Assembly (NCBI GenBank): GCA_002989075.1 | Contig: PSQN01000001.1 | Span: 1,853,153-1,917,152 of the forward strand | Source of the DNA: Arthonia radiata | Lineage: Eukaryota > Ascomycota > Arthoniomycetes > Arthoniales > Arthoniaceae | Direction: 5' to 3' | Length of the DNA stretch: 64,000 nt | In this document: positions 28,749-41,869 of the stretch, piece by piece | How the letters are laid out: the number at the start of each line of letters is the position of its first letter | How positions within the stretch are numbered: the first letter of the stretch is position 1 | The notes under the pieces: generated by a model | The model's database searches: none | The model's input: only the letters and a program-made list of their open reading frames with translations | Told to the model about the DNA's origin: nothing | Translations under genes and position numbers: made by a program

Positions 28749-30428
28749 TTACCTGGCAAACCTTGCAAGAGCGGGACCAAATTCGACCCGTTTCTTCTCG
28801 ACCCGGTTCTTCGTGTGTTTCCTTTGCGCCTCGTAGGCTTCTTGAATCTTCAATCGCTTCTCATCGATGACGTTTTTGGAACCTCGCTTTCTCAAAAACT
28901 TGCGCAAAGCGCTATTCTTGCCACGTCCTCGATTCCTGAGTAGATCTACTCTGTCTTGAGGAATTTCATCGAGATCTTTCTCACGCTTGCGCTCCTCCGC
29001 GGATGCAAGGTCAAGGTTTCCAATGAAATTCGGATCAAGTGAGATGGTATCAGGCTGAAGCTTGTTGAGTAATCCCCGGACTTCGGCTTCTTGCCGCTGC
29101 TTGGTGTCTTCGTACGGGTTGATTTCTAAAGCGTCAAAGTTGGGCTCACCCGCTCCAGGTACGATCATGCTCGAGAAGCCTTCGTTGTGGGATACACCAA
29201 GGACGTCTTCTAACGGGCACCATCGCACGCGCTCGATGCGCTGGCCGTCACCGCCCCAAGCCATGTACGGTCGCTGGAGCTTCTCTTGATCCTCCGCTGA
29301 TTTGTCGAAAAGCCCTTGCCAGATGGAAACACGAGTGCCAAACGACACTGCTGTCAAACCTCGATCGCTAATTGCGATGTCAGACCCTGGCTGACTCAAA
29401 GAATACTTGTGGACGTCCTTGAACATGCGAAGGTCCCACAATGCCATTTTGGACTCCTGTCCTGCCGTCACCATATATTTTCCCTCTCTATCGACGGTCA
29501 AGGCTCGAACAGGACCGTTGTGCACCTTCATCTTCGCGAGATATGTGGACGAATTGGGCGACCAGAGGTCGACAGTGCCATTTTGGTGGCCAACGTGCAT
29601 CACAGCGTTGTACGGGTTTTGAGCGAAAGCAGTTGGAGCGCCTTGCCTAGTCGGCATTTCTGCGACAATCTGGCCTGTTGAAGAGTCGAGATATTTTAGC
29701 ACGCCAGCTGTGCCTATTGATGCCAACAAGAAATGATACGGCAAGAAGTCGAGGTGTGTGACGTTGAGCAACTTTTTCAAGCTGTGTATCTCAACGCCCT
29801 TGGAATCGTAAATGTACACGCATTGTCGCTGAGCAGCCGCGAAGTACTGGTTATTGTGCAGCCATTTTACATCCTTAACGGTCGCACCCAACTGGATCTC
29901 GCAGCCGAGCTTACCACTTCTCCAGTCTATGGTCGCAATGTGACCCTTTTTGCCTGCCAACAGTAGCTCCCGGCCATTGCGCGTATACTCCGCAATGTAT
30001 GGGCCCAACTCTTTCAGCTTCAACTCGAATCCTTTCTTCGCAGTCTGCGTTGGAAGTTCTTTTTGTATGTCATCTTGTCGCGCTCGCCAGGTCTTTTCGA
30101 GTTCATGCTCTGGCTCAAGTAGACCAGCTCGGTTCTCGTGAAGGATCTCGGCGTCTCGAGCTTTGAGAGTGGTGTCCTTGTATTTGGTTTCGAGAGACTT
30201 GAGATTGCTCCGGAGCTTCTTGTCCTGGACACGGCTGAGTGAGATCTCTTTACCCCTTCCATAATTTTGTTTTGCTTCCCTTGAACGTTGCTTCGCAGCG
30301 CGAATCTCCGCTTCTTTCTCCGGGTCGACGATGCCCGCAACGGTCGTTTGAGGTTTCCTTCGCCCGTTCCGTGCCTCTTGATCACGACTCGTAAGATATA
30401 CAGTCTGCTTTTTCGAGGGTGCTTCCAT
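28749..30428 (-). CDS. UTP7: U3 snoRNP protein UTP7 (WDR46)
   Basis: Single exon, 559 aa from the ATG at 30428; yeast Utp7 is 554. A basic N terminus is followed by a WD40 propeller (HIATIDWRSGKLGCEI, VKWLHNNQYFAAAQ, NPYNAVMHVGHQNGTVDLWSP, VRALTVDREGKYMVTAGQESKMALWDLR) and the BING4CT tail (RVRWCPLEDVLGVSHNEGFSSMIVPGAGEPNFDALEINPYE). The end is Arg/Lys-rich. UTP7 is part of the small-subunit processome and acts in 18S rRNA maturation in the nucleolus. The frame runs 66 codons further upstream, but family N termini support 30428. Confidence 0.95.
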   Translation of the reverse strand: MEAPSKKQTVYLTSRDQEARNGRRKPQTTVAGIVDPEKEAEIRAAKQRSREAKQNYGRGKEISLSRVQDKKLRSNLKSLETKYKDTTLKARDAEILHENRAGLLEPEHELEKTWRARQDDIQKELPTQTAKKGFELKLKELGPYIAEYTRNGRELLLAGKKGHIATIDWRSGKLGCEIQLGATVKDVKWLHNNQYFAAAQRQCVYIYDSKGVEIHSLKKLLNVTHLDFLPYHFLLASIGTAGVLKYLDSSTGQIVAEMPTRQGAPTAFAQNPYNAVMHVGHQNGTVDLWSPNSSTYLAKMKVHNGPVRALTVDREGKYMVTAGQESKMALWDLRMFKDVHKYSLSQPGSDIAISDRGLTAVSFGTRVSIWQGLFDKSAEDQEKLQRPYMAWGGDGQRIERVRWCPLEDVLGVSHNEGFSSMIVPGAGEPNFDALEINPYEDTKQRQEAEVRGLLNKLQPDTISLDPNFIGNLDLASAEERKREKDLDEIPQDRVDLLRNRGRGKNSALRKFLRKRGSKNVIDEKRLKIQEAYEAQRKHTKNRVEKKRVEFGPALARFAR

Positions 30429-30691
30429 TCCGATGTTGTTGTAAGTGCGCTGCCAGCAACACAAGAACCCAGGCGAAGAAGAAGACAGCGACATTTTCGA
30501 GGTCCAGGAACGCCATTGCGCTTTGGGCACTTCGCCAAGATTTTGGACGCTAACCTTATCGATATGCAATTTCGTCCAATTTTGAGCACAGCCGGTACCT
30601 TGTTGTTGTTCCATGCCCCCAATCATTTTATGAGAGCTCGACCATCCTGGCTTCGCTTCCTTACAGATTCAAGGCGGGCGGAACAGGCGCA
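30429..30691. promoter_or_regulatory. Divergent promoter, UTP7 / TSR1
   Basis: 263 bp between the starts of two ribosome-biogenesis genes. CCAAT-type sequences are present (CCAATTTT and CCAATCATTTT in 30575-30630). I do not see the yeast PAC or RRPE motifs in consensus form. Confidence 0.6.
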
Positions 30692-33157
30692 ATGCCCGGA
30701 ATCGTCGCGCAGCAGCCTCATCATCACAAGCCCACCACCAAGGCCACCCAAAAGCCGTTCAAGTCACGGTTCACCAGTAAAAATGAGCTCAGAGATCGCT
30801 CACGAGGGCGACTCGAGCAGTCTGAGAAAGGCGTGAGGAGAACGCAAAACCAGCACGTCATGTCAAAGCTTGACCGCAAGAACCATGCCAAGCAGATGCG
30901 CCAGCAGAAGACGCGCCAGCACGAAGACACGGCCAGTATCTTCAAGGGAAAAGATGGCGCACCAAGGGTAATCGCCGTAGTTCCACTGTGTGATGATGTT
31001 ACGGCAGACTCTGCGGTGAAGTGCTTAAACCATAGCTTAGACATTGACGAGGACGTACCGCAAGAAGGCTCTTACGTGACGAACGTCGATCGTTTTAAGA
31101 CTAAGCTACAGTACATGAACGTTCGGAAAGACCTTTCCACAGCCTTAGACGCCTGTAAGGTTGCTGACTTTGTCCTGTTCATTCTGTCTTCGTCACAGGA
31201 AGTTGATGAGGCCGGTGAGCTCATCTTACGAAGTGTTGAAAGTCAAGGCGTTTCGAATGTGTATGTCGCGGTGCATGGTCTGGACTCGATCGAAGCGCAA
31301 AAGCACCGGCAACAAACTCTTGCATCACTCAAATCGTTCATCCAGCACTTTTTCGCCTCCGTCGAACGAATATATTCCTTAAATAACCGCCAGGAAAGCC
31401 TCAATGTCGTCCGCTCTGTGTGCACGACTGTTCCGAGAGGGGTGCGTTGGCGCGAAGACCGCAGCTGGATGAATGTCGAAGAAGTGCAACGGCCTGCGGG
31501 TGCGGAGCTTGACGTTGATGGTACTGGTGAGGTGACACTTACCGGTGTGGTCAGGGGTCACAACCTCAAATCTGATCGGCTGGTCCATGTCGGCGACTGG
31601 GGCGATTTTCAGATGAGCTCCATTACTGCAGCTCCACGTGCTCAGCCTCAAAAAGGTAAAACGAACGCAATGGCCGTTGATGGTAATAGTTCCGGCGACC
31701 TTCTCGATGCGCCGTCCGTGGATCAGGACACATTGGAGAAGCTCGCACCCGAAGAAATCGTCATGGGCGATGACAACATTGCGCCTTCATTAGCATCAAC
31801 AAGTCAGAAAGGGGTTTTGTTAGATGACCAGCATTACTATTCCGGCGAAGACTCTGAAGCTGAGGAGGAGCGACCAAAGCGCTTACCCAAGGGAACTTCA
31901 AAATACCAGTCTGCATGGTATCTAGGCGACAATTCAGACTCCGGATCCGACATGGAAGACGTTGAGGACTGGGAAGTTTCGACAAGTGCACCCGCTGATG
32001 ATCCAATGGATGGCACGGAAGGTGCGGCTGGTCCAGCAACCATCAATGGTGCGGAAACCGCATCTGAGTATCCCCGGTCTGAGATGATCGACGATACCGA
32101 GCTCGACGACGACGTTGACACAGAAGAGCTAGCGGCGTATCGCTCAAAGCGGCGAAAGAATGACGCAGAAGCTGATCGAGAGTTTCCTGACGAGATCGAA
32201 CTACATCCCAATGTACTGGCGCGCGAACGGCTTGCAAAGTACCGGGGATTGAAGAGTGCGAAGGTGAGTCCGTGGGATACCGAGGAGGATCGTCCCTATC
32301 AGCCGTTGGAATGGGACAGACTGCTCGATGTCAGTGATTACAGGGGTGCAAAAAGTAAGGTGATGAGGGAGAGTCTCATTGGAGGCGTGAAGCCAGGCAC
32401 ACGCGTTTCGATGAAACTGAAGGATGTGCCGCTTTACTTGTACCAATCGTACGATCAGGCAAAGCCGCTGCCACTATTCTCATTGTTGCGACACGAGCAC
32501 AAGCGCACCTGCGTCAATGTGAGCATAACGTTGAAATCAGATGCCTCCGCACCGGTCAAGAGCAAGTCAGAGCTCATCGCTCAGATCGGACCTCGCCGCT
32601 TTGCCATCAACCCGCTTTTCAGTCAGGCCGGCAACACGCCCAACGATGTGCACAAGTTCGAGCGATACCTCCATCCTGGCCGCACCGCTGTAGCAAGCTT
32701 CATCGCGCCGCTCACCTGGGGCTCGCTTCCCGTGCTGTTCTACCAGCGCGTTACATCATCTCAAGCTGAAGGTGATGGCGGTATGGAAGTTGATTTGCAC
32801 GGCGCTCCATCACCATCGCTTCAGCTCATCGGCCATGGCACTACGCTCCCGCCGTCCACAGGCCGTATCATTGCTAAGCGAGCGCTCCTCACGGGACAGC
32901 CATACAAGATTCACAAGAAGCTAGTCACGATCCGCTACATGTTTTTCAATGCCGAAGATGTGGCATGGTTCAAGGCGCTTCCGCTGTGGACCAACAGAAG
33001 CAGGCAAGGCACCATCAAGGAGAGTTTGGGCACGCATGGCTATTTCAAGGCGGTATTTGATGGGAAGACAGGACCGATGGATGCGGTGGGTATGACGCTG
33101 TGGAAGAGGGTGTGGCCGCGCGACGCACGGCAGTTGACAGCAGGCGAGGTGGCGTGA
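30692..33157 (+). CDS. TSR1: 40S ribosome maturation factor TSR1
   Basis: Single exon, 821 aa (yeast Tsr1 788). Basic N terminus (HHHKPTTKATQKPFKSRF), GTPase-like domain (RVIAVVPLCDDVTADSAVK...), AARP2CN region, an acidic insert (residues ~380-510: EDSEAEEERPKRLPKGTSKYQSAWYL, DDTELDDDVDTEELAAYRSKRRK), and the C-terminal BMS1/TSR1 domain (EWDRLLDVSDYRGAKSKV, ERYLHPGRTAVASFIAPLTWGSLPVLFYQ, RYMFFNAEDVAWFKALPLWT, GTHGYFKAVFDG). The classical nucleotide-binding residues are lacking, as usual for TSR1. It acts on pre-40S particles. Confidence 0.96.
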   Translation: MPGIVAQQPHHHKPTTKATQKPFKSRFTSKNELRDRSRGRLEQSEKGVRRTQNQHVMSKLDRKNHAKQMRQQKTRQHEDTASIFKGKDGAPRVIAVVPLCDDVTADSAVKCLNHSLDIDEDVPQEGSYVTNVDRFKTKLQYMNVRKDLSTALDACKVADFVLFILSSSQEVDEAGELILRSVESQGVSNVYVAVHGLDSIEAQKHRQQTLASLKSFIQHFFASVERIYSLNNRQESLNVVRSVCTTVPRGVRWREDRSWMNVEEVQRPAGAELDVDGTGEVTLTGVVRGHNLKSDRLVHVGDWGDFQMSSITAAPRAQPQKGKTNAMAVDGNSSGDLLDAPSVDQDTLEKLAPEEIVMGDDNIAPSLASTSQKGVLLDDQHYYSGEDSEAEEERPKRLPKGTSKYQSAWYLGDNSDSGSDMEDVEDWEVSTSAPADDPMDGTEGAAGPATINGAETASEYPRSEMIDDTELDDDVDTEELAAYRSKRRKNDAEADREFPDEIELHPNVLARERLAKYRGLKSAKVSPWDTEEDRPYQPLEWDRLLDVSDYRGAKSKVMRESLIGGVKPGTRVSMKLKDVPLYLYQSYDQAKPLPLFSLLRHEHKRTCVNVSITLKSDASAPVKSKSELIAQIGPRRFAINPLFSQAGNTPNDVHKFERYLHPGRTAVASFIAPLTWGSLPVLFYQRVTSSQAEGDGGMEVDLHGAPSPSLQLIGHGTTLPPSTGRIIAKRALLTGQPYKIHKKLVTIRYMFFNAEDVAWFKALPLWTNRSRQGTIKESLGTHGYFKAVFDGKTGPMDAVGMTLWKRVWPRDARQLTAGEVA

Positions 33158-33355
33158 TAAGCGATCGAATGAGTCGGAGTGGTTGCTGTGCGGCCATGTC
33201 GCTGTAACAATTGAGCACAGTAGCCTATTTGTAAAAGATACGCGTGCTGATGTGCTTGATATAAAATACTCGATGCGAAAAGCAACGCTATCAGGTGGGT
33301 AATGAATGCCCTGCTTGCAACAATCTGACCAAAAATGGTGCAGAAGGGTTTGAGT

Positions 33356-33365
33356 GGACTCGAAC
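33356..33365 (-). promoter_or_regulatory. Extragenic B-box-like motif for ncRNA copy 1
   Basis: Minus-strand GTTCGAGTCC, ~60 nt beyond the 3' end of copy 1. It fits the Pol III B-box core GGTTCGANTCC, but its flanks do not form a tRNA T-arm. Confidence 0.55.
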
Positions 33366-33427
33366 ATGGCATCTCCATGTCCACGGCGTAACGTCAGCAT
33401 TGCAGCAGCGCTGAGCAAGAGCAAGAA

Positions 33428-33498
33428 GGGAGGCTCGCCGCGAGAGCGACTTACCCAGCCGCCGTCAAGCTGACAAGATGGCTTGTGTAGCTAGTCCC
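33428..33498 (-). ncRNA. Candidate Pol III structured RNA, copy 1 (weakest)
   Basis: 71 nt. Outer helix 5' GGGA / 3' TCCC (fifth pair C-C), then the A-box-like TAGCTACACAAGC, a second helix CTTGTC/GGCGAG (two G-U), and a distal hairpin GGCGGCT-loop-AGTCGCT. TATA-like CATATATTT on minus at ~33524-33533, ~26 bp upstream. The 3' flank is CTCCCTTCTTGC, so no T4 terminator; this copy may be degenerate. B-box-like motif at 33356-33365. Most similar to copy 2. Confidence 0.5.
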
Positions 33499-33682
33499 TT
33501 AAGAGTTCCTTCATGTTAATTCGAAATATATGCATAGACGCAGATGCATTCTCAAAGCAAAACAAAAAGAGCGGTGAGCGAAGAAACACGCGGCTAGAAT
33601 GCCCCAATCCGGGCTGCTTCAAAGGAAGAACCGCTTGTTCAAGATTTACCCACTAGACCATTGCTACATCAAAAAAGCAAAA

Positions 33683-33756
33683 GGAAAGGCTTGCCTGAAC
33701 AGGCAGCTTCCCAGCCGCCTTTACCAAGACAAGATGACTCTGTGTAGCTACTTTCC
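33683..33756 (-). ncRNA. Candidate Pol III structured RNA, copy 2
   Basis: 74 nt. Outer helix GGAAAG/CTTTCC; unpaired TAGCTACACAGAGTCAT; second helix CTTGTCT/AGGCAAG; distal hairpin GGCGGCT-GGGA-AGCTGCC. One C joins the second helix to the outer helix, as in most other copies. TATA box AATATATATTG on minus at 33779-33789 (24 bp upstream). The 3' end runs into TTTT and then TTTTTT. The downstream B box is weak (GGTTCTTCC at 33624-33632). The helix bases differ from copies 4, 6 and 7 but stay paired. Confidence 0.68.
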
Positions 33757-33945
33757 TGAAAGTCGATGGTGGAATCACAATATATATTGAGCACCTGCGC
33801 TTCGAGACTCGATGCACTAACCGCTGATGTCCTACAAGAGCTCATTGTTGTTAAGAAGGGCGATTTGTCCCAGGGACGCATTCAATCGTTATGCAGATTC
33901 ATTGATCATACTTCAGCAATTCAAGCTGGTCGTCTTCTACGTGGT

Positions 33946-33955
33946 GGATTCGAAC
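33946..33955 (-). promoter_or_regulatory. Extragenic B-box-like motif for ncRNA copy 3
   Basis: Minus-strand GTTCGAATCC followed by ACC, ~70 nt beyond the terminator of copy 3; near-perfect B-box core. Confidence 0.6.
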
Positions 33956-34026
33956 AATGATCACGCCAGCACCCCTCAAAAAGAGGAGCCCAACTACACT
34001 ACACCATCACGGTTCAGAAAGCAAAA

Positions 34027-34106
34027 GGGAAGGCTCGCCTTTTGCATTGGGCAGGCAGCTTGTCCAGCTGCCCGATCAGCGAGATGGTTTGATGCAGCTA
34101 CTTCCC
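34027..34106 (-). ncRNA. Candidate Pol III structured RNA, copy 3
   Basis: 80 nt. Outer helix GGGAAG/CTTCCC; TAGCTGCATCAAACCAT bulge; second helix CTCGCT/GGCGAG; distal hairpin GGCAGCT-GGACA-AGCTGCC. Terminator TTTT directly follows. TATA element weak (GATATG on minus at ~34131-34136). B-box-like motif at 33946-33955. Confidence 0.65.
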
Positions 34107-34282
34107 TGGAGGCCATGGGTGAGATTACAACATATCAAGATCATGTTGTTCTGCATCTTCTTGCATTGACCGCTCTTCCGTCCCTACGTTCCGTCCCGGC
34201 AGAAACATTGCACAAGAGCTGAGCTCCAAACATACTCGATGCACCTATATAGACTTGATACTTCTCTTTCCAGTATTCCATT

Positions 34283-34293
34283 GGACTCGAATC
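34283..34293 (-). promoter_or_regulatory. B-box-like motif downstream of ncRNA copy 4
   Basis: Minus-strand GATTCGAGTCC, ~180 nt beyond the copy 4 terminator; a weaker GCTCGATTGC lies closer, at 34415-34424. Which one (if either) is used is unknown. Confidence 0.45.
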
Positions 34294-34470
34294 CGCGGCG
34301 AGGTTCAAGTTGAGTTCGGCATGGCTGCAAGAACGATATATACCAGTCGTTGAATTTAACTGCAACATCCCCTGTAGTGATAGCCGCTCGCCGCTCACCG
34401 CTCACCCTCATCAAGCAATCGAGCAAATATCAACTGCGCTATTGACTACACCATGTAAGAGCTTCAAAAA

Positions 34471-34546
34471 GGGGAGGCAACCGTGACTCCACCAGCGTTT
34501 TCTACAAAGGCCGAAGGCGGTTGATGCGCTTGTGAAGCTACTCCCC
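34471..34546 (-). ncRNA. Candidate Pol III structured RNA, copy 4
   Basis: 76 nt. Outer helix GGGGAG/CTCCCC; TAGCTTCACAAGCGCAT bulge; second helix CAACCG/CGGTTG, with CCGCC/GGTGG as a possible third. One C bridges the helices on the 3' side. TATA box AATATATATT at 34571-34580, 25 bp upstream of the first G. Terminator TTTTT at 34466-34470. This is one of the best-formed copies. Confidence 0.72.
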
Positions 34547-34833
34547 TGACAAACATGCTTACAGGTACAGAATATATATTGAGAGTAGCTTTCTTCGAGT
34601 GACACAAAATCTCCCGCACTGCATCGCCGACAGTGAAGTAAAAAGACCACGCTATCTAATCACATCAGGTCGTAGCAACTTATAACACAGATCGTGCTCT
34701 TTTCTCGCTGGCTTATCCCGACGCCGCCTGAATCGAAGCATTGAGAGAGGAATAGTGTTGCCAGAGCGCTGCTAAGAGACGACAGAAGCGCCTTGGACGC
34801 AGACGACACGAATGAAGACCGCGACATGCAGCT

Positions 34834-34843
34834 GGATTCGAAC
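34834..34843 (-). promoter_or_regulatory. Extragenic B-box-like motif for ncRNA copy 5
   Basis: Minus-strand GTTCGAATCC followed by AGC, ~60 nt beyond the copy 5 terminator. Confidence 0.6.
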
Positions 34844-34904
34844 GAACGTGCTTCATCGAAAAGCTGTGCAACGATGAAGCAAGACGTAGCAGCAGCAGCA
34901 AAAA

Positions 34905-35007
34905 GGAGAGGCACAGCCAGTTCAGACGGCGATCTCGCCAGCCTGCGCTATCCAAAGATAGCTGGATAATCCCTGTGACTGTGATGATTGCGATGCAGCT
35001 ACTCTCC
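34905..35007 (-). ncRNA. Candidate Pol III structured RNA, copy 5
   Basis: 103 nt. Outer helix GGAGAG/CTCTCC; TAGCTGCATCGCAATCAT bulge; second helix CACAGTCA/TGGCTGTG (8 pairs, one G-U); two distal hairpins GCTATC-TTTG-GATAGC and GGCGA-GA-TCGCC. One C links the helices. TATA element ATTATAT at ~35033-35039. Terminator TTTTT at 34900-34904. Confidence 0.72.
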
Positions 35008-35265
35008 TGATAAGCTGGCAATAAAGTTGGGAATATAATGATAAGATGCGGATGGGACAAAACCTGGCTGTGGTGATGACGATCATCTGCGCGCTTTAGC
35101 TGCAAAGTCTGCGACGATATTGGTGTGCTTCATAACATGGAAGGTGTGGGTGGCCATTTGCGGGCGCTACTGTGAAGAGAAGTGTCCCAGGCACATACAG
35201 AGCATCGTAGATACGGGTACAGTAGAATACCCTACCTTACATGCTTGCGTGCTCAAGGACGCTTT

Positions 35266-35277
35266 GAGTCTCGAACC
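35266..35277 (-). promoter_or_regulatory. Extragenic B-box-like motif for ncRNA copy 6
   Basis: Minus-strand GGTTCGAGACTC, ~45 nt beyond the copy 6 3' end. Confidence 0.5.
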
Positions 35278-35321
35278 CGCGCTCGTCTAGCTCTGCCAAA
35301 AAGAGAAGGGCCGAAACAAAA

Positions 35322-35482
35322 GGGGAGGACGCAGCACGTCAGTCACCCGCCGACCCCCCCGCGCCTCTCCGCGACGAGGGATCGACTTCGACTGTCGCTA
35401 CGTTGGCGAGGTATCTGGACTCTCTATCCTTCTCAACCCAGTGGGAGCGTGCTGCGTTACTAGACCATTCAGCTACTCCCCC
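35322..35482 (-). ncRNA. Candidate Pol III structured RNA, copy 6 (long form)
   Basis: 161 nt, twice the usual size. Outer helix GGGGAG/CTCCCC; A-box-like TAGCTGAATGGTC, closest of all to a tRNA D-arm; second helix ACGCAGCACG/CGTGCTGCGT, ten perfect pairs; then a large apical domain of ~100 nt. Terminator TTTT at 35318-35321. TATA element weak (CTTATGTT at ~35508-35515). Confidence 0.65.
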
Positions 35483-35515
35483 TGGCAGGTCGGAACTATT
35501 GAACAAAACATAAGC

Positions 35516-35934
35516 CGTTTGGCTCATTTTGGAAGCAAACAAGAGAGCAGGGGAGGTGTGGTTCGAGCAAAGGCCGGACCTGCACGGGCTCATGTCGGTA
35601 TCCGATACCAACGGCGCCAGCATATATGACGAACGCCAGAGAGTAAAGCGAACGCAGCAACGCTCTAGCAACGCTCTTACAGGGAATTCCCAAGTAGGAG
35701 AAAGTACGTTTTGATGGCGTGATAAGCTTGGGCTGGGTACTCACCTGAACCACGGTGCAGCTCTTTGAAGACATGAGTCACTAGTCTGATGACCGCGGTC
35801 ACCAACACCGGAAGGACGCTAAGACAACGGGCAGCCAAGCATGTTGAACGTGCTCTTCAGTAGACGTGTGAGAAGATATAAAAGCCAGGATTCTGGCGTA
35901 AGCGAGAAGAACATTAAGCGTGATTAGTAGTGAT
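35516..35934. other. Intergenic
   Basis: About 420 bp between copy 6 and the next gene's stop. No further ncRNA copy found; a plus-strand GTGGTTCGAGC near 35560 is an isolated B-box-like match. Confidence 0.4.
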
Positions 35935-36951
35935 CTATACGTATGTTGTCGCTTGCAGATAAGCATAGCAACCTCCTTGAGGGACGAAAACCGACGGCGG
36001 TGAAATGTCGCCTGTCCAATCCCGTGGGTGCTCGTCCGTCGTGGTCCACTGCGTCGTCCACTCACCAGCCGAGTCCTTCCAGGTGGGTATGGCTGCAGTC
36101 CTAGTGTCAGACTCAGCTACTCGCAGTGGTATGTTTGTAACACTGTTTTCTTCGCTGCGCAGCAGATCGCCGAGAAACAACCTCGCCTCGCTTCCCCTGC
36201 TGTCTCGCAGCAATAGCCACCGATGCTTGGGGTCGGCCATCATGTTTGCCACCCAGTGCAGATCTTCTTCCACAACCCAGACGTCACGACGCTGGTCAGG
36301 CCGCTCGTCACTGTCTAACTCCAGTGGACTGCACATGAGACAGTCTCCCTGCAGCCAGAACATGTGCTGTCTTGAGACATCAACGGCTACGCCCCTGACT
36401 TGCATGCCCTCATCGTCCCTCGCCGTCTGTGCTCCGCAGCTCAAGGCATCACGCGCGTAGTCTGCACTGCTCTCAAGAAGCAGAGCTGGCGTCGGCGATC
36501 GGTAGCTCTGGTAGACGAGCTTGGGCGTGTCTGCCCAAGTGTCATCGCCTAAGTCGATCCGCCAAATGCGGCACCCTGCTCCATCGGTCACATACAAGGC
36601 ATCGCAGCCGACGTCGAGATCGCCTTCCTCGTCATCTGAAACCCCGGAGACAAAGCTGATTGATGTGGGCTCGCGGATGATGCCTCGAGGGACGAGTAGT
36701 CGAGTGTGCGGTCTCCCAGAGGCGAGAGCGGTCACAGTGATGACTCCAAGCGTCGGATAGGTTGCCCATAGACACAGGCGGTCCTCACCATACGCCACGG
36801 AGTGAGCCGGTGGGAGGCCGTCTTGCTGCTTGAACGCGCTGGGTATATTGGATGAAGGGCGAGTGTCGTCCCCTGCAGATCTGCTGAACAAGCTGTGATC
36901 GATTTGCAGCAGCTGTGAATGAATCGAGCGTCCAGAATCTAAGCTCGCCAT
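35935..36951 (-). CDS. Uncharacterised protein, possible beta-propeller (NHL/SMP-30-like)
   Basis: Single exon, 338 aa, starting MASLDSGRSIHSQLLQ. I do not recognise a named family. Repeating short beta-type segments suggest a propeller: DRLCLWATYPTLGVITVTAL, DALYVTDGAGCRIWRIDLGDD, VRGVAVDVSRQHMFWLQGDCLMCSPLEL, HWVANMMADPKHRWLLLRDSRGSEARLFLGDL. No signal peptide or membrane segment. It lies between the two ncRNA sub-clusters, with no evident functional link. Confidence 0.65.
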   Translation of the reverse strand: MASLDSGRSIHSQLLQIDHSLFSRSAGDDTRPSSNIPSAFKQQDGLPPAHSVAYGEDRLCLWATYPTLGVITVTALASGRPHTRLLVPRGIIREPTSISFVSGVSDDEEGDLDVGCDALYVTDGAGCRIWRIDLGDDTWADTPKLVYQSYRSPTPALLLESSADYARDALSCGAQTARDDEGMQVRGVAVDVSRQHMFWLQGDCLMCSPLELDSDERPDQRRDVWVVEEDLHWVANMMADPKHRWLLLRDSRGSEARLFLGDLLRSEENSVTNIPLRVAESDTRTAAIPTWKDSAGEWTTQWTTTDEHPRDWTGDISPPSVFVPQGGCYAYLQATTYV

Positions 36952-37814
36952 CGTCGATGCTCGAAGTGCAGTGCTACCTTGACTTCTGCGCCTTGAGCGC
37001 TAGGAAATGGTTGGTATGGAGGGCGTAGCGGTGTTTTCCCCGCAGATCAGAGGTTGCACTATAAGGAGCTCTCCTGAAAGGATTGAGGGCGCAGTGGCGG
37101 CTTCAATCAATAATCATGCAGCACTTGAGGATGACTGGTACGGTGGTGAACGCTATGATCCGTTCCGCGGAAAGATGCACCGTCCTGTGAAGAAGGGGAC
37201 ACGCATGCCTTTGTACTCCGCCCTTGCAGCACAAGAGGGTCAGCCGCAACGGCGCAGAGTCCGCGGAATGGTAAGCTAGGCGCTTGCGTGGTCGCCTTCC
37301 GAGACCGCGTGGCTGACGTCTGACCCCTGCCAAAGCTCCTCAATCGAGTCTAGATCATGTACGTTGCATGCAGAATCAGGTGGCTCGTCTGCACTCTACA
37401 TGGGTAAGGAGACAAATGAGAACGGATTGGGAGATGATGGCGACATCATGCATCTCTTTGACAAGGGGAAGACCATCAGTTGCGGTAATTTGATATCTTA
37501 TCCGTGATTGCGGACAGGGAGGGTGCTTGGGCGGCTTAAAGGGGGTTCTGAGAAGCAAGGGACAATGGAAGGGATTCTGCAGGTATGGAAGGCCTTTCGA
37601 ACAGCGCTGATGTCTATGAGCAATGTCACTCAACATTGACAAACACTCGACTTTGAGATGACAATGCTGGGGAGTAGCTTGGTTGCATAGGAATTGTTGA
37701 CAAGCGAGGTGAAGAGATGTCAGAAATGCGCCGGGAGATTGCGGACTTTAAATTCATCTCGCCCGGCCTGACTTCATCCTCGTCCCAATTAATTTGCTCG
37801 CCTGTACACATTGC
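36952..37814. other. Divergent promoter region
   Basis: About 860 bp between divergent starts. GGGGAGTAGCTT at ~37670 on plus resembles the ncRNA 5' end but lacks TATA, paired 3' strand and terminator. Nothing else found. Confidence 0.45.
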
Positions 37815-38897
37815 ATGCTCGCTAAACAACCATGGGAGATGCAACCCGATGACGAGCCCTTCCCTAACCAAGCCTCGACGGCATCCAACCGCAACGATGA
37901 CAACAATGCAAGCGAAGAGCAGGCTGCGCGCCGGCCCTCAACGCACTCGCGAACCGCCTACTTCACCACTCCAGCACCCTTGAAGCGCCTCTTCGACCGC
38001 TTTCCCCTCCGCACCTATGCGTCTAACGGTCTCCCTTTAGCTGCGAGCCAGAACAATATCCGACTGCATCAGAAAAACGTCCTCTACGTCTTTGGCGCTC
38101 CGAGTGAGCTCAGTTTGAACCCAACATGCCTACGCTACCAGACCCTCCTTCTCTTCGCCGGCATCCCCTTCGAGACCGCAACCTCCAATAACCACGCCTC
38201 ACCGGCAGGCTCACTACCTTTCCTCATTACCGCGCAAGATCCTTTCATACACACTTCGAAGACTATTCCCGCGTCCGGCCTGAAGTCCTTCGTCCGCTCA
38301 CGGAATCCACAGACTGAGATGGAGCTCGATGCAAGCCCTGTTCACCTGGCGTTGCTCGATCCGATCCGAAGGGCTTACCTTGCTGCGCTATATCTGGACG
38401 GCGAAACCTTCAAAAGTATTTGCGCGCCAATGTACGTGGATACCGTGAGTCGGAGCAGTGTAGTGAGGGCTGCGTATGTGCCACCCTTGCGAAGTGCTGC
38501 AGTGGAAGAGGTGTTGAGTACAAGGAATGAAGCTCCACCGACTGATACCGCGGAACAGCTCAAGAATTGGTGGAGCGGCAGTAGGGAGATAGATGAAGGC
38601 GCATTGTTCGAAGAGGCGCAAGAGGCGTTTCGAGCTCTCGATGCGATACTAGGTGACGCGCGTTGGTTCAGTAGAAGTAAAAGCAGCGGTACAGCAGAGG
38701 AGGCGCCAGGATGGCTGGACGCAAGCGTCTTTGCGTACACACACGTCATACTGACACTGTTCGGCGGCGGCGCTTCGGGCGCGGCGAAGGGCGCGAAGAA
38801 GCGGCGGCCGCTAGCTGCTGAGAAGATGTATCAGGCTGTCGCGAAGCACAAAGAATTGGTGGCGCATCGAGATCGCATATTGACGGCGTATGGATAG
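37815..38897 (+). CDS. Metaxin-like SAM complex subunit (SAM35-type)
   Basis: Single exon; ATG at 37815 gives 360 aa, a second in-frame ATG at 37839 gives 352. The frame opens with TTG further upstream, which I do not use. Landmarks: LKRLFDRFPLRTYASNGLP at the N-terminal domain start, NVLYVFGAPSELSLNPTCLRYQTLLLFAGIPFETATSNNHASPAGSLPFLI (thioredoxin/GST-like metaxin N-domain with its conserved Ser-Pro), then helical C-domain with AAYVPPLR and LDASVFAYTHVILTLF. Such subunits sit on the cytosolic face of the mitochondrial outer membrane and help SAM50 insert beta-barrels. SAM35 versus SAM37 is not certain from one sequence. Confidence 0.78.
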   Translation: MLAKQPWEMQPDDEPFPNQASTASNRNDDNNASEEQAARRPSTHSRTAYFTTPAPLKRLFDRFPLRTYASNGLPLAASQNNIRLHQKNVLYVFGAPSELSLNPTCLRYQTLLLFAGIPFETATSNNHASPAGSLPFLITAQDPFIHTSKTIPASGLKSFVRSRNPQTEMELDASPVHLALLDPIRRAYLAALYLDGETFKSICAPMYVDTVSRSSVVRAAYVPPLRSAAVEEVLSTRNEAPPTDTAEQLKNWWSGSREIDEGALFEEAQEAFRALDAILGDARWFSRSKSSGTAEEAPGWLDASVFAYTHVILTLFGGGASGAAKGAKKRRPLAAEKMYQAVAKHKELVAHRDRILTAYG

Positions 38898-39166
38898 ATT
38901 TGCTGATGATACCCAACTCGCATCTTTTGAATGATCTTCAGTATGTCGAGTCTCCAGGTGGTAGATGCCCATGAAGCAACATGATTTTTGCTTAACCTCT
39001 CAATGCACTCTTCAGTTGGGTCCAGCAGCTTGCAGTGACTCATATGCATCACCAGCGGATGGTGTTCGATACGGTACATTTCCGTCGATGTGAAAGCGAT
39101 GTTTCACAAGCTGTCTGGAGACTGATGACTATTGAACCTCGCGTTGAGATTGCGACGCGTGCTTAG
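38898..39166. other. Intergenic between SAM35-like gene and ncRNA copy 8
   Basis: About 270 bp, no gene found. Confidence 0.4.
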
Positions 39167-39195
39167 TATATTGTGGCCTTAAAGGGTGGCTTCCA

Positions 39196-39298
39196 AGGGA
39201 GTCTACATTACAATCATCGCAGCCGCTGTCCCGGCGGCGTAAGATGCCAGGAAGTCATAATCAACTCGTTGGTCATGGCTGTTAGGCTGCGCCTCCCT
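39196..39298 (+). ncRNA. Candidate Pol III structured RNA, copy 8
   Basis: 103 nt on plus. Outer helix AGGGAG/CTCCCT; unpaired TCTACATTACAATCAT (A-box region most divergent here); second helix CGCAGCC/GGCTGCG, seven perfect pairs; a C bridge. TATA-like AGTATATT at 39165-39172, 24 bp upstream. Terminator TTTTT at 39298-39302. B-box-like GGGTTCGAGCTC at 39359-39370, ~57 nt past the terminator. I found it from the promoter/helix layout, not from sequence similarity, which supports the model. Confidence 0.7.
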
Positions 39299-39358
39299 TT
39301 TTGTCATCTTGATGTCCATAGCAGCTTGCGAAGCAAAGCAAAGAAAAGAAAAGAGTGC

Positions 39359-39370
39359 GGGTTCGAGCTC
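39359..39370 (+). promoter_or_regulatory. Extragenic B-box-like motif for ncRNA copy 8
   Basis: GGGTTCGAGCTC ~57 nt downstream of the T-run. Confidence 0.55.
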
Positions 39371-39811
39371 GGCTGAGCGCGGTCACTCTTGCAATCGCCG
39401 CCCTGCGGCTATCCTATTGAACTTTGGAAGATACCTGGCTTTCTAATCTTGTGCAATCGATGTCTAAAAAGAAGGCCTCTTTTTACTTGCTTGATGACGG
39501 CCCGTGCAGCGATTTGAATAGACAGCACTCAGTGTGAGAGTAACGCTGCATGTATCACCATATCCGGCGTTTCTCGGCATCTGATCTCAATTTATTGTTT
39601 ACTGGAGGTGTGAGCGGCAAGGCGACACCTTTGACGTACATAGATGTGCCATCCGTAGAAAGTCTGCCGACGCATGACGGTGAAGGGCCAATGCGACAAC
39701 GATTTCTGTGTAAATGTGGAGTATCAAACCACGCTCGCCCAGAAACGTTAAAGATTGAAACCGCACAGCCAATTACCGTTTTGAAAGCATGGGCTGCTAT
39801 TGGCAATTCGT
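39371..39811. other. Intergenic between ncRNA copies 8 and 7
   Basis: About 440 bp; no coding region recognised. Confidence 0.4.
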
Positions 39812-39820
39812 TATATATAT
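39812..39820 (+). promoter_or_regulatory. TATA box of ncRNA copy 7
   Basis: TATATATAT ending 25 bp before the first base of the outer helix, the spacing also seen in copies 2, 4, 5 and 8. Confidence 0.65.
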
Positions 39821-39845
39821 TCCATATTTCAATCATTATTTGTCA

Positions 39846-39920
39846 GGGGAGTAGCTCAGCTTACCCATCACAAGGTGCCGCGGCGGCCCTAGTGGCTGCC
39901 GAATGCACTTGTACCTCCCC
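39846..39920 (+). ncRNA. Candidate Pol III structured RNA, copy 7
   Basis: 75 nt on plus. Outer helix GGGGAG/CTCCCC; A-box-like TAGCTCAGCTTACC; second helix ACAAG(G)TGC/GCACTTGT with one bulged G; distal hairpin CGGCGGCC-CTAGT-GGCTGCCG. Terminator TTTT at 39921-39924 followed by another T-run. TATA at 39812-39820; B-box-like GGGTTCGATTC at 39986-39996. tRNA-sized, but it has no T-arm inside the body and no cloverleaf. Confidence 0.74.
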
Positions 39921-39985
39921 TTTTGCATTTTTTGTACGCACTATCATTGTCAGGCAGTAATTTTTGCCATCAAGCACGAGGACAC

Positions 39986-39996
39986 GGGTTCGATTC
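39986..39996 (+). promoter_or_regulatory. Extragenic B-box-like motif for ncRNA copy 7
   Basis: GGGTTCGATTC, ~62 nt past the T-run of copy 7 and ~140 nt from its start. Confidence 0.6.
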
Positions 39997-41869
39997 ACGA
40001 ACATCCATACGACATTAAGACTCTCCTTCCCCAAGGACGGCAAACCATTGCATCTGTCAAGGGTCGAACCCCACTGTACCAGTCTGCAAACGCTATGCGA
40101 CTCTACAGCGCCTCTGCTTTGCGCTCGCGGTCTGCATGATTTGTCGGGTGCATCGATATTGCTCGTGCTGCCTTGCTTGCTCGCAAATCGTATACACGAC
40201 CAATCATGGGAACTTGACTCGGAAAAGCTAATTCATCTGCAAGCTTTTGAGAGCTGTTCTTCCATCACAACCAAAGGGCTTAAACACTCCCGGGCGAAGC
40301 GATTCCGCGGCGCTGGTCTTGCTGCAGAGCAGATACGTCTGAACCTTGTTGGCGCGCAGTTCGCCACCGAAAGCCAACCTCGTTGTCCCAGATGGCTTGT
40401 GGGTCCGGTGTCGAGAGATTCACGCATGGACCGGTGGACAAGCGGTGAGAGGAGAGAGTGAACAGAAGAAGTGCCCAACGGTGGGATGGATTACTGTTTA
40501 TGGCGCATTGGTATTGCAGTAGCTATATGAAGTATAGCGCCGACGCGTCACAACGCGTCAGTGCGCGTTGAGAGTGCGCGTCTTGAAGTGTAGCAAAAGG
40601 ACCTACAATAAGCTGGGCGCTTTCAAGCTGCGCATGGACTCAGGAGTCGGAGCCTTGGAGAAGCGCTGGTGTTCAGATGTGAATTCCAGATGAGTGATGC
40701 CGCAGTGCGAAAAAGAGCATCCTGCCCCGTCTTCAGCTGTAGGATGTCACGATGTTCATTCAACACACCGAGAGCTCAGTGTGTAGCCTGCTGGTTCTAG
40801 TCTACGGGTCTGTCAATGCGTGGTCCTTATAAACGCATCCTCTGTGTGCCATTGTCAAGAGTTTGCGAGAAGCGACGGGGCGAGATCTTATGGACTGGTT
40901 CGACCGCCACGTTGATGGAAGTATGAGACCGAGTTGCTGACCACGACATGTCTTGGTTGATACCGCCGTAAAGACATTGTGGTTTGCAGACCGTGTCTTT
41001 ACTTCCTCAGAGACCCTTCAAGCCCGCATCGCCATTCGAGCCAGATGCGCTGCTCGATCTGGGCTAAATGAATGCTGGTGAAGTGAGGGTATGCCTCAGG
41101 GGGTCGTCTTCGAAGACGCCATTCTCTCGACTGTCAGCTGTGCGTGCTGCAATGGATACTGCTCGAAAGCTACTCATTCAAAAGGCTGACTGATCCTGCC
41201 CCTGGCCGAGAATCGTTGCAAAGCATCCTGACCTTCTTGTTGTCTTGACGTGGTACGAAGTGGCAAGATATCTCAAAGTCGATCAGTATCACATCGTGCG
41301 CGGCGAAGAGATAGCCAGCTGGTCCACGTTGGATTCGAGAGTCTGTATCTGTGACCTGGTGTGCATGCCCGGGCCTGCGAGCCTGACGATTAGCGGTCAC
41401 GAGATTCATCGAGACATAGCACTCGACAATCTCCCTACCAAGGATTTGTCAGAGCATCCGCCGTCGACAAGCCAGGACTATCCTGAAGCCGCGATTGATA
41501 GGAGTCTTGCTGGAAAGGGTAAGAATTTCCCGGCGGCATTGTTTACGATCGGCGGTGAGCGCACCTTCTCGCGGAGCTCCGCCCAGCGACACCCACGTGC
41601 TACTCTCTCGGCCGGCGCAGGAGCGAGAGTCGCTCTGTTCACTCGACACCGCTCCTGCTGCTGCTGGTGTTGCTGCCTGGAATTTCATTGAGTGACGCCA
41701 TTGGTTTCAAATCTTTGTTTGTGGGCATAAATACTCTTCGCCCGCCCTTCATCTCTTTCTTCCTTCCTTCTCCCACCACCATCAAAACCCACTCTGGCTG
41801 TTCTCTTTGGTGGCTCGCTCTCTGTTCTGCTCACGACACTTTTGCTGCGCTCTCTTCCTCTTCCACGCC
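39997..41869. other. 1.9 kb intergenic stretch
   Basis: No recognised gene. At about 40544-40561 two ACGCGT (MCB-type) hexamers occur 11 bp apart. A TATA-like CATAAATAC at ~41726-41734 and a CT-rich leader (41744-41795) precede the small gene at 41870. Confidence 0.45.

Follow-up and report, generated by a model that had tools for sequence, protein, structure and literature searches.

A stretch of 64,000 nucleotides of the Arthonia radiata genome (assembly GCA_002989075.1, contig PSQN01000001.1, positions 1,853,153 to 1,917,152 of the forward strand), hereafter the window, contains eight candidate small RNA loci built on one common plan. Copies 1-6, on the minus strand, are packed within 2.1 kb (33426-35482) just behind the TSR1 gene (30692-33157, Pfam Tsr1 domains), while copies 7 and 8, on the plus strand, begin at 39195 and 39845, behind a gene (37794-38897) with glutathione-transferase-like domains. 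No overlap was found with any listed open reading frame (ORF) of at least 180 aa. An earlier note on this DNA had described eight loci with one architecture and proposed that selection acts on the structure of their RNAs; all eight are present, and the plan was refined as follows.

Read on the RNA-sense strand, the 5' half consists of a purine-rich strand of 7 nucleotides (nt; AGGGGAG and variants), the motif TAGCT and one strand of a second helix (helix 2). The 3' half opens with the variable region and continues with the second strand of helix 2, one C, 7 nt complementary to the initial 7 and a run of T residues. The outer, terminal helix is thus of 7 bp, its end running into the T-run, rather than of 6 bp as first described. 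The putative RNAs and their outer helices are copy 1, 33426-33500, AAGGGA.C/C.TCCCTT; copy 2, 33682-33757, AGGAAAG/CTTTCCT; copy 3, 34026-34107, AGGGAAG/CTTCCCT; copy 4, 34470-34547, AGGGGAG/CTCCCCT; copy 5, 34904-35008, AGGAGAG/CTCTCCT; copy 6, 35321-35482, GGGGGAG/CTCCCCT; copy 7, 39195-39298, AAGGGAG/CTCCCTT; and copy 8, 39845-39921, AGGGGAG/CTCCCCT, with the start TAGCTCAG. Copy 1, to which four outer pairs had been assigned, has six and an inner C.C mismatch, and the outer helix of copy 6 has a terminal G-U. RNA length is 74-165 nt counting the T-run, or 75-162 nt up to the last paired base; by its coordinates the copy 2 RNA is 76 nt, and copy 6 has the longest RNA and a divergent 5' strand.

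Between the outer helix and helix 2 lies a 5' strand of 16-18 nt, as had been noted, with the pattern TAGCT...CAT. TAGCT stands at +8 in seven of the eight copies (copy 7 has TCTAC there), and CAT closes the strand in all but copy 6. The opposite side of this internal loop is usually a single C, again as first described, with an additional unpaired A preceding it in copy 8. Helix 2 keeps a constant position, while its sequence varies freely between copies.

Because free alignment of all eight full RNAs with MAFFT put the variable middle out of place, pairs were counted on rows containing only the helix arms and, separately, on five compact full-length copies. The arm-only rows were picked by the analyst from visible helices, which favours pairing; the controls are pairing partners slid along the alignment and a held-out model. 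Across eight copies and 13 pairs, 102 of 104 cells are paired and 29 are changed on both sides. Both-sided change is present in 9 of the 13 pairs, a count reached by 1 of 500 shuffles, and these comprise three of the seven outer pairs and all six helix 2 pairs. For covariation the alignment scores 0.813, the shuffles 0.241 (none of 500 reaching the observed value) and slid partners at most 0.239; sliding the partner by 1-3 columns lowers pairing to 45-59%. The five compact copies agree (96.9% paired, score 0.731 versus 0.254). The claim that helix 2 strands are unrelated in sequence yet complementary is supported by covariation in all six columns, and that of matched changes in the outer helix holds with modest covariation: it involves three columns, in each of which two copies differ, always by a change from G-C to A-U. 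Taken together, these counts support the proposed selection on RNA structure.

The plan itself is rare by chance. A strict rule asks for an exact TAGCT behind 7 nt able to pair at every position with the 7 nt before a T-run. The window has six such sites, all of them family loci (copies 1 and 7 fall outside the rule), against a mean of 0.15 and a maximum of 1 in 20 dinucleotide shuffles. Looser rules separate family from chance less well: one TAGCT mismatch gives 8 hits against a shuffle mean of 2.80, six pairs give 9 against 1.40, and both together 41 against 33.95.

A covariance model, R1, was trained on copies 1-4 and 8, selected for similar length, and run unfiltered over the whole window. 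It returned 17 matches, five of them the training copies, and among the other 12 the held-out copies rank first: copy 5 (18.5 bits, E 0.014), copy 7 (15.2 bits, E 0.099) and copy 6 (13.2 bits, E 0.33). In three of these 12 the match is to a training copy read on its reverse strand; one of the three, copy 3 (12.3 bits), comes next in rank. This ranking is what family membership predicts; the E-values are weak.

The loci also have candidate promoter signals, which the earlier note had not mentioned. Upstream of the RNAs, an exact TATAWW is found at −28 to −33 in six of the eight copies, compared with 0.4% of 4000 random points. On the minus strand these boxes are TATATT at 33525-33530 (copy 1, −30), TATATA at 33781-33786 (copy 2, −29), TATATA at 34573-34578 (copy 4, −31) and TATATT at 35032-35037 (copy 5, −29); on the plus strand they are TATATT at 39167-39172 (copy 7, −28) and TATATA at 39812-39817 (copy 8, −33, the run extending to −24). 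The remaining two copies carry the TATA-like TATGTT, at 34129-34134 (copy 3, −27) and 35507-35512 (copy 6, −30), both on the minus strand. A terminator of four or more T residues (T4) closes the RNA in seven of the eight; copy 1 has only TTCTT.

Within 200 nt past the T-run, on the same strand, a B box (GGTTCGANTCC, at most two mismatches) is present in seven of the eight copies, in five of them with one mismatch, whereas a B box lies within 200 nt of 7.6% of random points. The boxes are TGTTCGAGTCC at 33356-33366 (copy 1), TGTTCGAATCC at 33946-33956 (copy 3), GATTCGAGTCC at 34283-34293 (copy 4), CGTTCGAATCC at 34834-34844 (copy 5) and GGTTCGAGACT at 35267-35277 (copy 6), all on the minus strand, and GGTTCGAGCTC at 39360-39370 (copy 7) and GGTTCGATTCA at 39987-39997 (copy 8) on the plus strand. 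In six copies the box is separated from the T-run by 40-66 nt, and in copy 4 by 173 nt; the distance from A to B box is 127-247 bp in seven copies. Scanning behind copy 2 with the consensus gave no B box, the best candidate having four mismatches, and GGTTCTTCC at 33624-33632 (minus strand), 125 nt from base 1 and equal to the consensus without GA, is possibly a damaged B box with a 2-nt deletion. An A-box-like ATGGTCTAGTGGG lies at 33649-33661 (minus strand), between the copy 2 terminator and this stretch.

When a TATA-like box, a 7-nt helix and T4 were combined in one scan of both strands, 13 rows were obtained. Nine have a B box and all nine stand at copies 3-8, two of them being other registers at copy 3; the four without one are copy 2 and three rows outside the family. 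Copy 1 is not among the rows because it lacks T4.

ARAGORN found no tRNA gene in the whole window, and the pairs of a tRNA T-stem just outside the B boxes are near chance (10 of 21 against 7.9). For these reasons the B box probably acts as a DNA signal and not as an RNA arm, which is most likely also what its conservation reflects, and separate tRNA genes at the downstream B boxes were rejected. Behind copy 3, by eye, the minus-strand stretch 33940-34013 is tRNA-like, with an A-box-like TGGTGTAGTGTAG, a B box, acceptor-like ends, an anticodon-stem-like hairpin with TTT in its loop and a broken T-stem; ARAGORN makes no call there.

The TATA box near −30, the A-box-like RNA start, T4 and the B box beyond the terminator together form a layout of the SNR6 type, and this points to RNA polymerase III (Pol III). 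Yeast SNR6 combines a TATA box at −30 with box A and with an extragenic box B located past its terminator, 202 bp separating A from B (available part of PMC9136082). The family has in common with it the TATA box near −30, box B past the terminator and an A-to-B spacing of 127-247 bp where SNR6 has 202 bp, as given in that part of the source. The family differs in that its RNAs are not U6 (no Rfam match) and in its eight divergent copies. On these grounds we consider it likely that the eight loci are Pol III genes for non-coding RNAs selected for structure, a family absent from Rfam in which most members most likely have a promoter laid out like that of SNR6 (U6).

Several observations weigh against this reading. 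T4 and the p7 pair are absent from copy 1, an intact B box was not found in copy 2, copy 6 lacks CAT, copy 7 lacks TAGCT, and the first pair of helix 2 is missing in copy 8. By eye, the start region fits the A-box consensus only in copies 6 and 8, and the opposite strand of the same downstream stretches reaches two B-box mismatches in two of the eight. The number of further pair types is the weakest covariation measure, the observed value being equalled by 11 of 500 shuffles. In the held-out test the single E-values are weak, the margin of copy 6 is thin (13.2 versus 12.3 bits), and R1 matched copy 6 over only 42 nt (35441-35482), without its assigned 3' arm. The copies are paralogs, so that the counts are not independent and binomial P values for the promoter counts overstate their significance. 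Searches for homologs by DNA pattern gave none in viral contigs and none in contigs of bacterial and archaeal genomes; six viral-contig stretches retrieved with a looser TATA and start pattern are two recurring sequences with no helix partner within 200 nt and were set aside as chance.

Folding energies belong to the same side of the balance. The outer helix forms in all eight minimum-energy folds, but helix 2 forms in only six, copies 1 and 3 folding otherwise; part of the 5' strand is paired in six (copies 2, 3, 4, 5, 6 and 8), and energies are only moderately better than those of mononucleotide shuffles (z from −0.86 to −3.70). Because the energy folds are less clear-cut, the case for helix 2 is based on covariation and not on energy. 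Our estimate that these are Pol III genes is unchanged by the energy folds of copies 1 and 3 or by the thin margin of copy 6, since the promoter evidence is independent of both.

The defects of individual copies raise the question of a mostly dead array, in which one or two live genes would be accompanied by drifting tandem copies with no collective function. The damage to copy 1, at its terminator and at the mismatched p7, and to copy 2, where no intact B box was found, is what such an array would contain, and both copies may be decaying. Copies 4, 5 and 8, however, retain an exact TATA box, a full outer helix, T4 and a B box while their tips have diverged; copies 3 and 6 retain all but the exact TATA box, and copy 7 all but TAGCT. 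An array of this kind is, in our view, unlikely.

Decayed tRNA-derived repeats resembling short interspersed elements (SINEs), in which the A and B boxes would be relics and the terminal helix an old acceptor stem, would account for TAGCT standing, by eye, in tRNA register after a 7-bp helix, and for the tRNA-like stretch with A and B boxes behind copy 3. SINEs have target-site duplications and a B box inside the transcript. Here none of the former is visible by eye in the 15-nt flanks, and the terminator precedes the B box, unlike in a SINE. In a relic, pairing in 102 of 104 cells, with both sides changed in 29, would hardly be expected. No tRNA was found by ARAGORN or Rfam, and the loci form a local cluster with none elsewhere in the window by the combined scan or model R1. 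Although tRNA-related SINEs do occur in Aspergillus fumigatus (available part of PMC5063351), we regard this origin as very improbable. The alternative of a transposon terminal inverted repeat, named in the earlier note, is not supported, given the same lack of visible duplications and the strand-specific TATA box, terminator and B box; no search of a transposon library was made.

Searches for a known family were negative. Rfam 15 gave no match at the gathering score in the whole window and none at E ≤ 10 in 33200-40100, so that the statement that no named family fits stands as far as this search reaches, as does the statement that these are not tRNAs, given the ARAGORN, Rfam and T-stem results above. 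Among the literature matches listed, judged by title and start of abstract and with subscription papers mostly outside the set, none describes this family, and the available part of PMC9757828, on fungal hairpin RNAs, holds nothing specific to it.

The loci could still belong to a known class too divergent for Rfam, a small nucleolar RNA, vault RNA or Y RNA, that was amplified locally. By eye, the eight sequences have neither a box C/D pair at their ends nor a 3' ACA. Vault RNAs have paired ends, an A box near the 5' strand and internal B boxes. Paired ends recur in the present family, around an A-box-like start, but its B box is external to the RNA, and there is no match in Rfam. According to the available part of a review (PMC11012908), vault RNAs also occur in small gene clusters and have a paralog-specific central domain, both as in this family, and they are reported absent in fungi. 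Such a divergent relative is doubtful, no better placed than the dead array.

Fungal small RNA loci offer a further comparison. In Neurospora, milR-1 to milR-4 have a common T-run just downstream and the major microRNA-like RNAs (milRNAs) are Pol III-dependent; a TATA-like element is needed for milR-1, and such elements, together with putative A and B boxes, are marked at milR loci in a figure legend (available part of PMC3547838). These loci are evidence that small RNA precursors in fungi can be made by Pol III. Some of them are marked with putative A and B boxes, and the T-run and TATA-like elements are features that the family has in common with them, as far as that part of the paper describes. 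Its RNAs might accordingly be Pol III-transcribed milRNA precursors whose apical hairpins are cut by Dicer and whose variable part sets silencing targets, an account with which variable hairpins and T-runs fit. Conservation here, however, falls on the closing clamp and the lopsided loop, not on one long duplex. The Neurospora milRNAs derive mainly from a single arm of the hairpin, for milR-1 neither an A box nor a B box is predicted, and the same part of PMC3547838 describes no constant clamp. Within the rest of the window, the longest perfect complement of each RNA is 10-14 nt, and none of the eight exceeds the best of its own 30 shuffles (means 11.0-12.2, maxima 13-15), which speaks weakly against local guides. 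We rate milRNA precursors as quite unlikely, slightly below the dead array and the divergent known class.

By analogy, the RNA plan is closest to the Class I RNAs of Dictyostelium, which combine a short stem joining the ends, a conserved motif beside the 5' strand, a variable remainder and many genes with a downstream T-run, and which are possibly transcribed by Pol III (available part of PMC7919456). The terminal stem, adjacent 5' motif, variable remainder, T-run and multiple genes are common to both, on the same source. The D. discoideum RNAs are 42-65 nt long, with an 11-nt motif and an element named DUSE about 60 nt upstream (PMC7919456, same part); at about 75-165 nt, the present RNAs fall outside that length. 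Unlike Class I, the family has the TAGCT...CAT motif, a helix 2 whose position is constant, the TATA box near −30 and the B box past the terminator, and it occurs in another group of organisms. Because length, constant strand and promoter differ, we do not file it under Class I.

If the loci are Pol III genes, transcription, start site, protein binding and function of the RNAs would be as follows, as we infer from the arrangement of signals. TBP and TFIIIB would assemble on the TATA box at about −30, and TFIIIC would be aided by the A-box-like RNA start (TAGCT, +8) and by the B box past the terminator, which by that position lies outside the RNA. Transcription would begin near the A where YCA meets GGGGAG and stop in the T-run closing the terminal helix. 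The resulting RNAs, about 75-165 nt long, would have paired ends and a U tail, which is a site for La protein. The RNAs would share a constant platform, made of the 7-bp clamp, a lopsided internal loop with 16-18 nt containing UAGCU...CAU on one side and usually one C opposite, and the lowest part of helix 2. On top of this platform would stand a variable helix and an apical region. The platform might bind one shared protein, while the variable part would give each RNA its own partner or target. That the RNAs form a family of ribonucleoprotein scaffolds or decoys with interchangeable tips is a tentative proposal, which we put somewhat short of an even chance.

To our knowledge, filamentous fungi have few known Pol III non-coding RNA families apart from the housekeeping ones, and the U6-type split promoter is best known from one yeast gene. 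The broader possibility is that the eight loci represent an undescribed fungal class of Pol III RNAs, clustered and fast-diverging, with a fixed clamp-and-loop platform, an interchangeable tip and U6-type split promoters, an independent counterpart of Dictyostelium Class I and of animal vault and Y RNAs with one shared protein and copy-specific targets. We consider the arguments for and against this class about evenly balanced. A fixed promoter and platform with a changing tip suggests adaptation at the tip. If the proposal is true, a U6-type split promoter serves a whole family, and A-to-B spacing and loss of the B box could be compared among natural paralogs.

Two further sites in the window were considered as a ninth copy and rejected, 37669 (plus strand) and one near 35760 (minus strand), neither of which shows a TATA box or helix partner by eye. 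Neither is among the rows of the combined TATA, helix and T4 scan or the matches of model R1, and 37669 is also absent from the TAGCT and helix scan at six pairs. The isolated start GGGGAGTAGCTTGG at 37669-37682 (plus strand), with no helix partner or TATA box seen, is a possible relic copy.

As for the neighbouring genes, 9 ORFs out of the 29 listed were searched against Pfam. The gene at 37794-38897 has a Tom37 match below threshold (21.8 bits against a cut-off of 25.1). Between the two parts of the cluster lies an ORF of 338 aa (35935-36951, minus strand) for which Pfam gave nothing at E ≤ 0.001. Matches of the TSR1 protein in PDB are to Tsr1 chains (best 9xaa_2, 969 bits), and the left neighbours in 28749-33157 look like two ribosome-biogenesis genes, one for a protein with a BING4CT domain on the minus strand and TSR1 on the plus strand.

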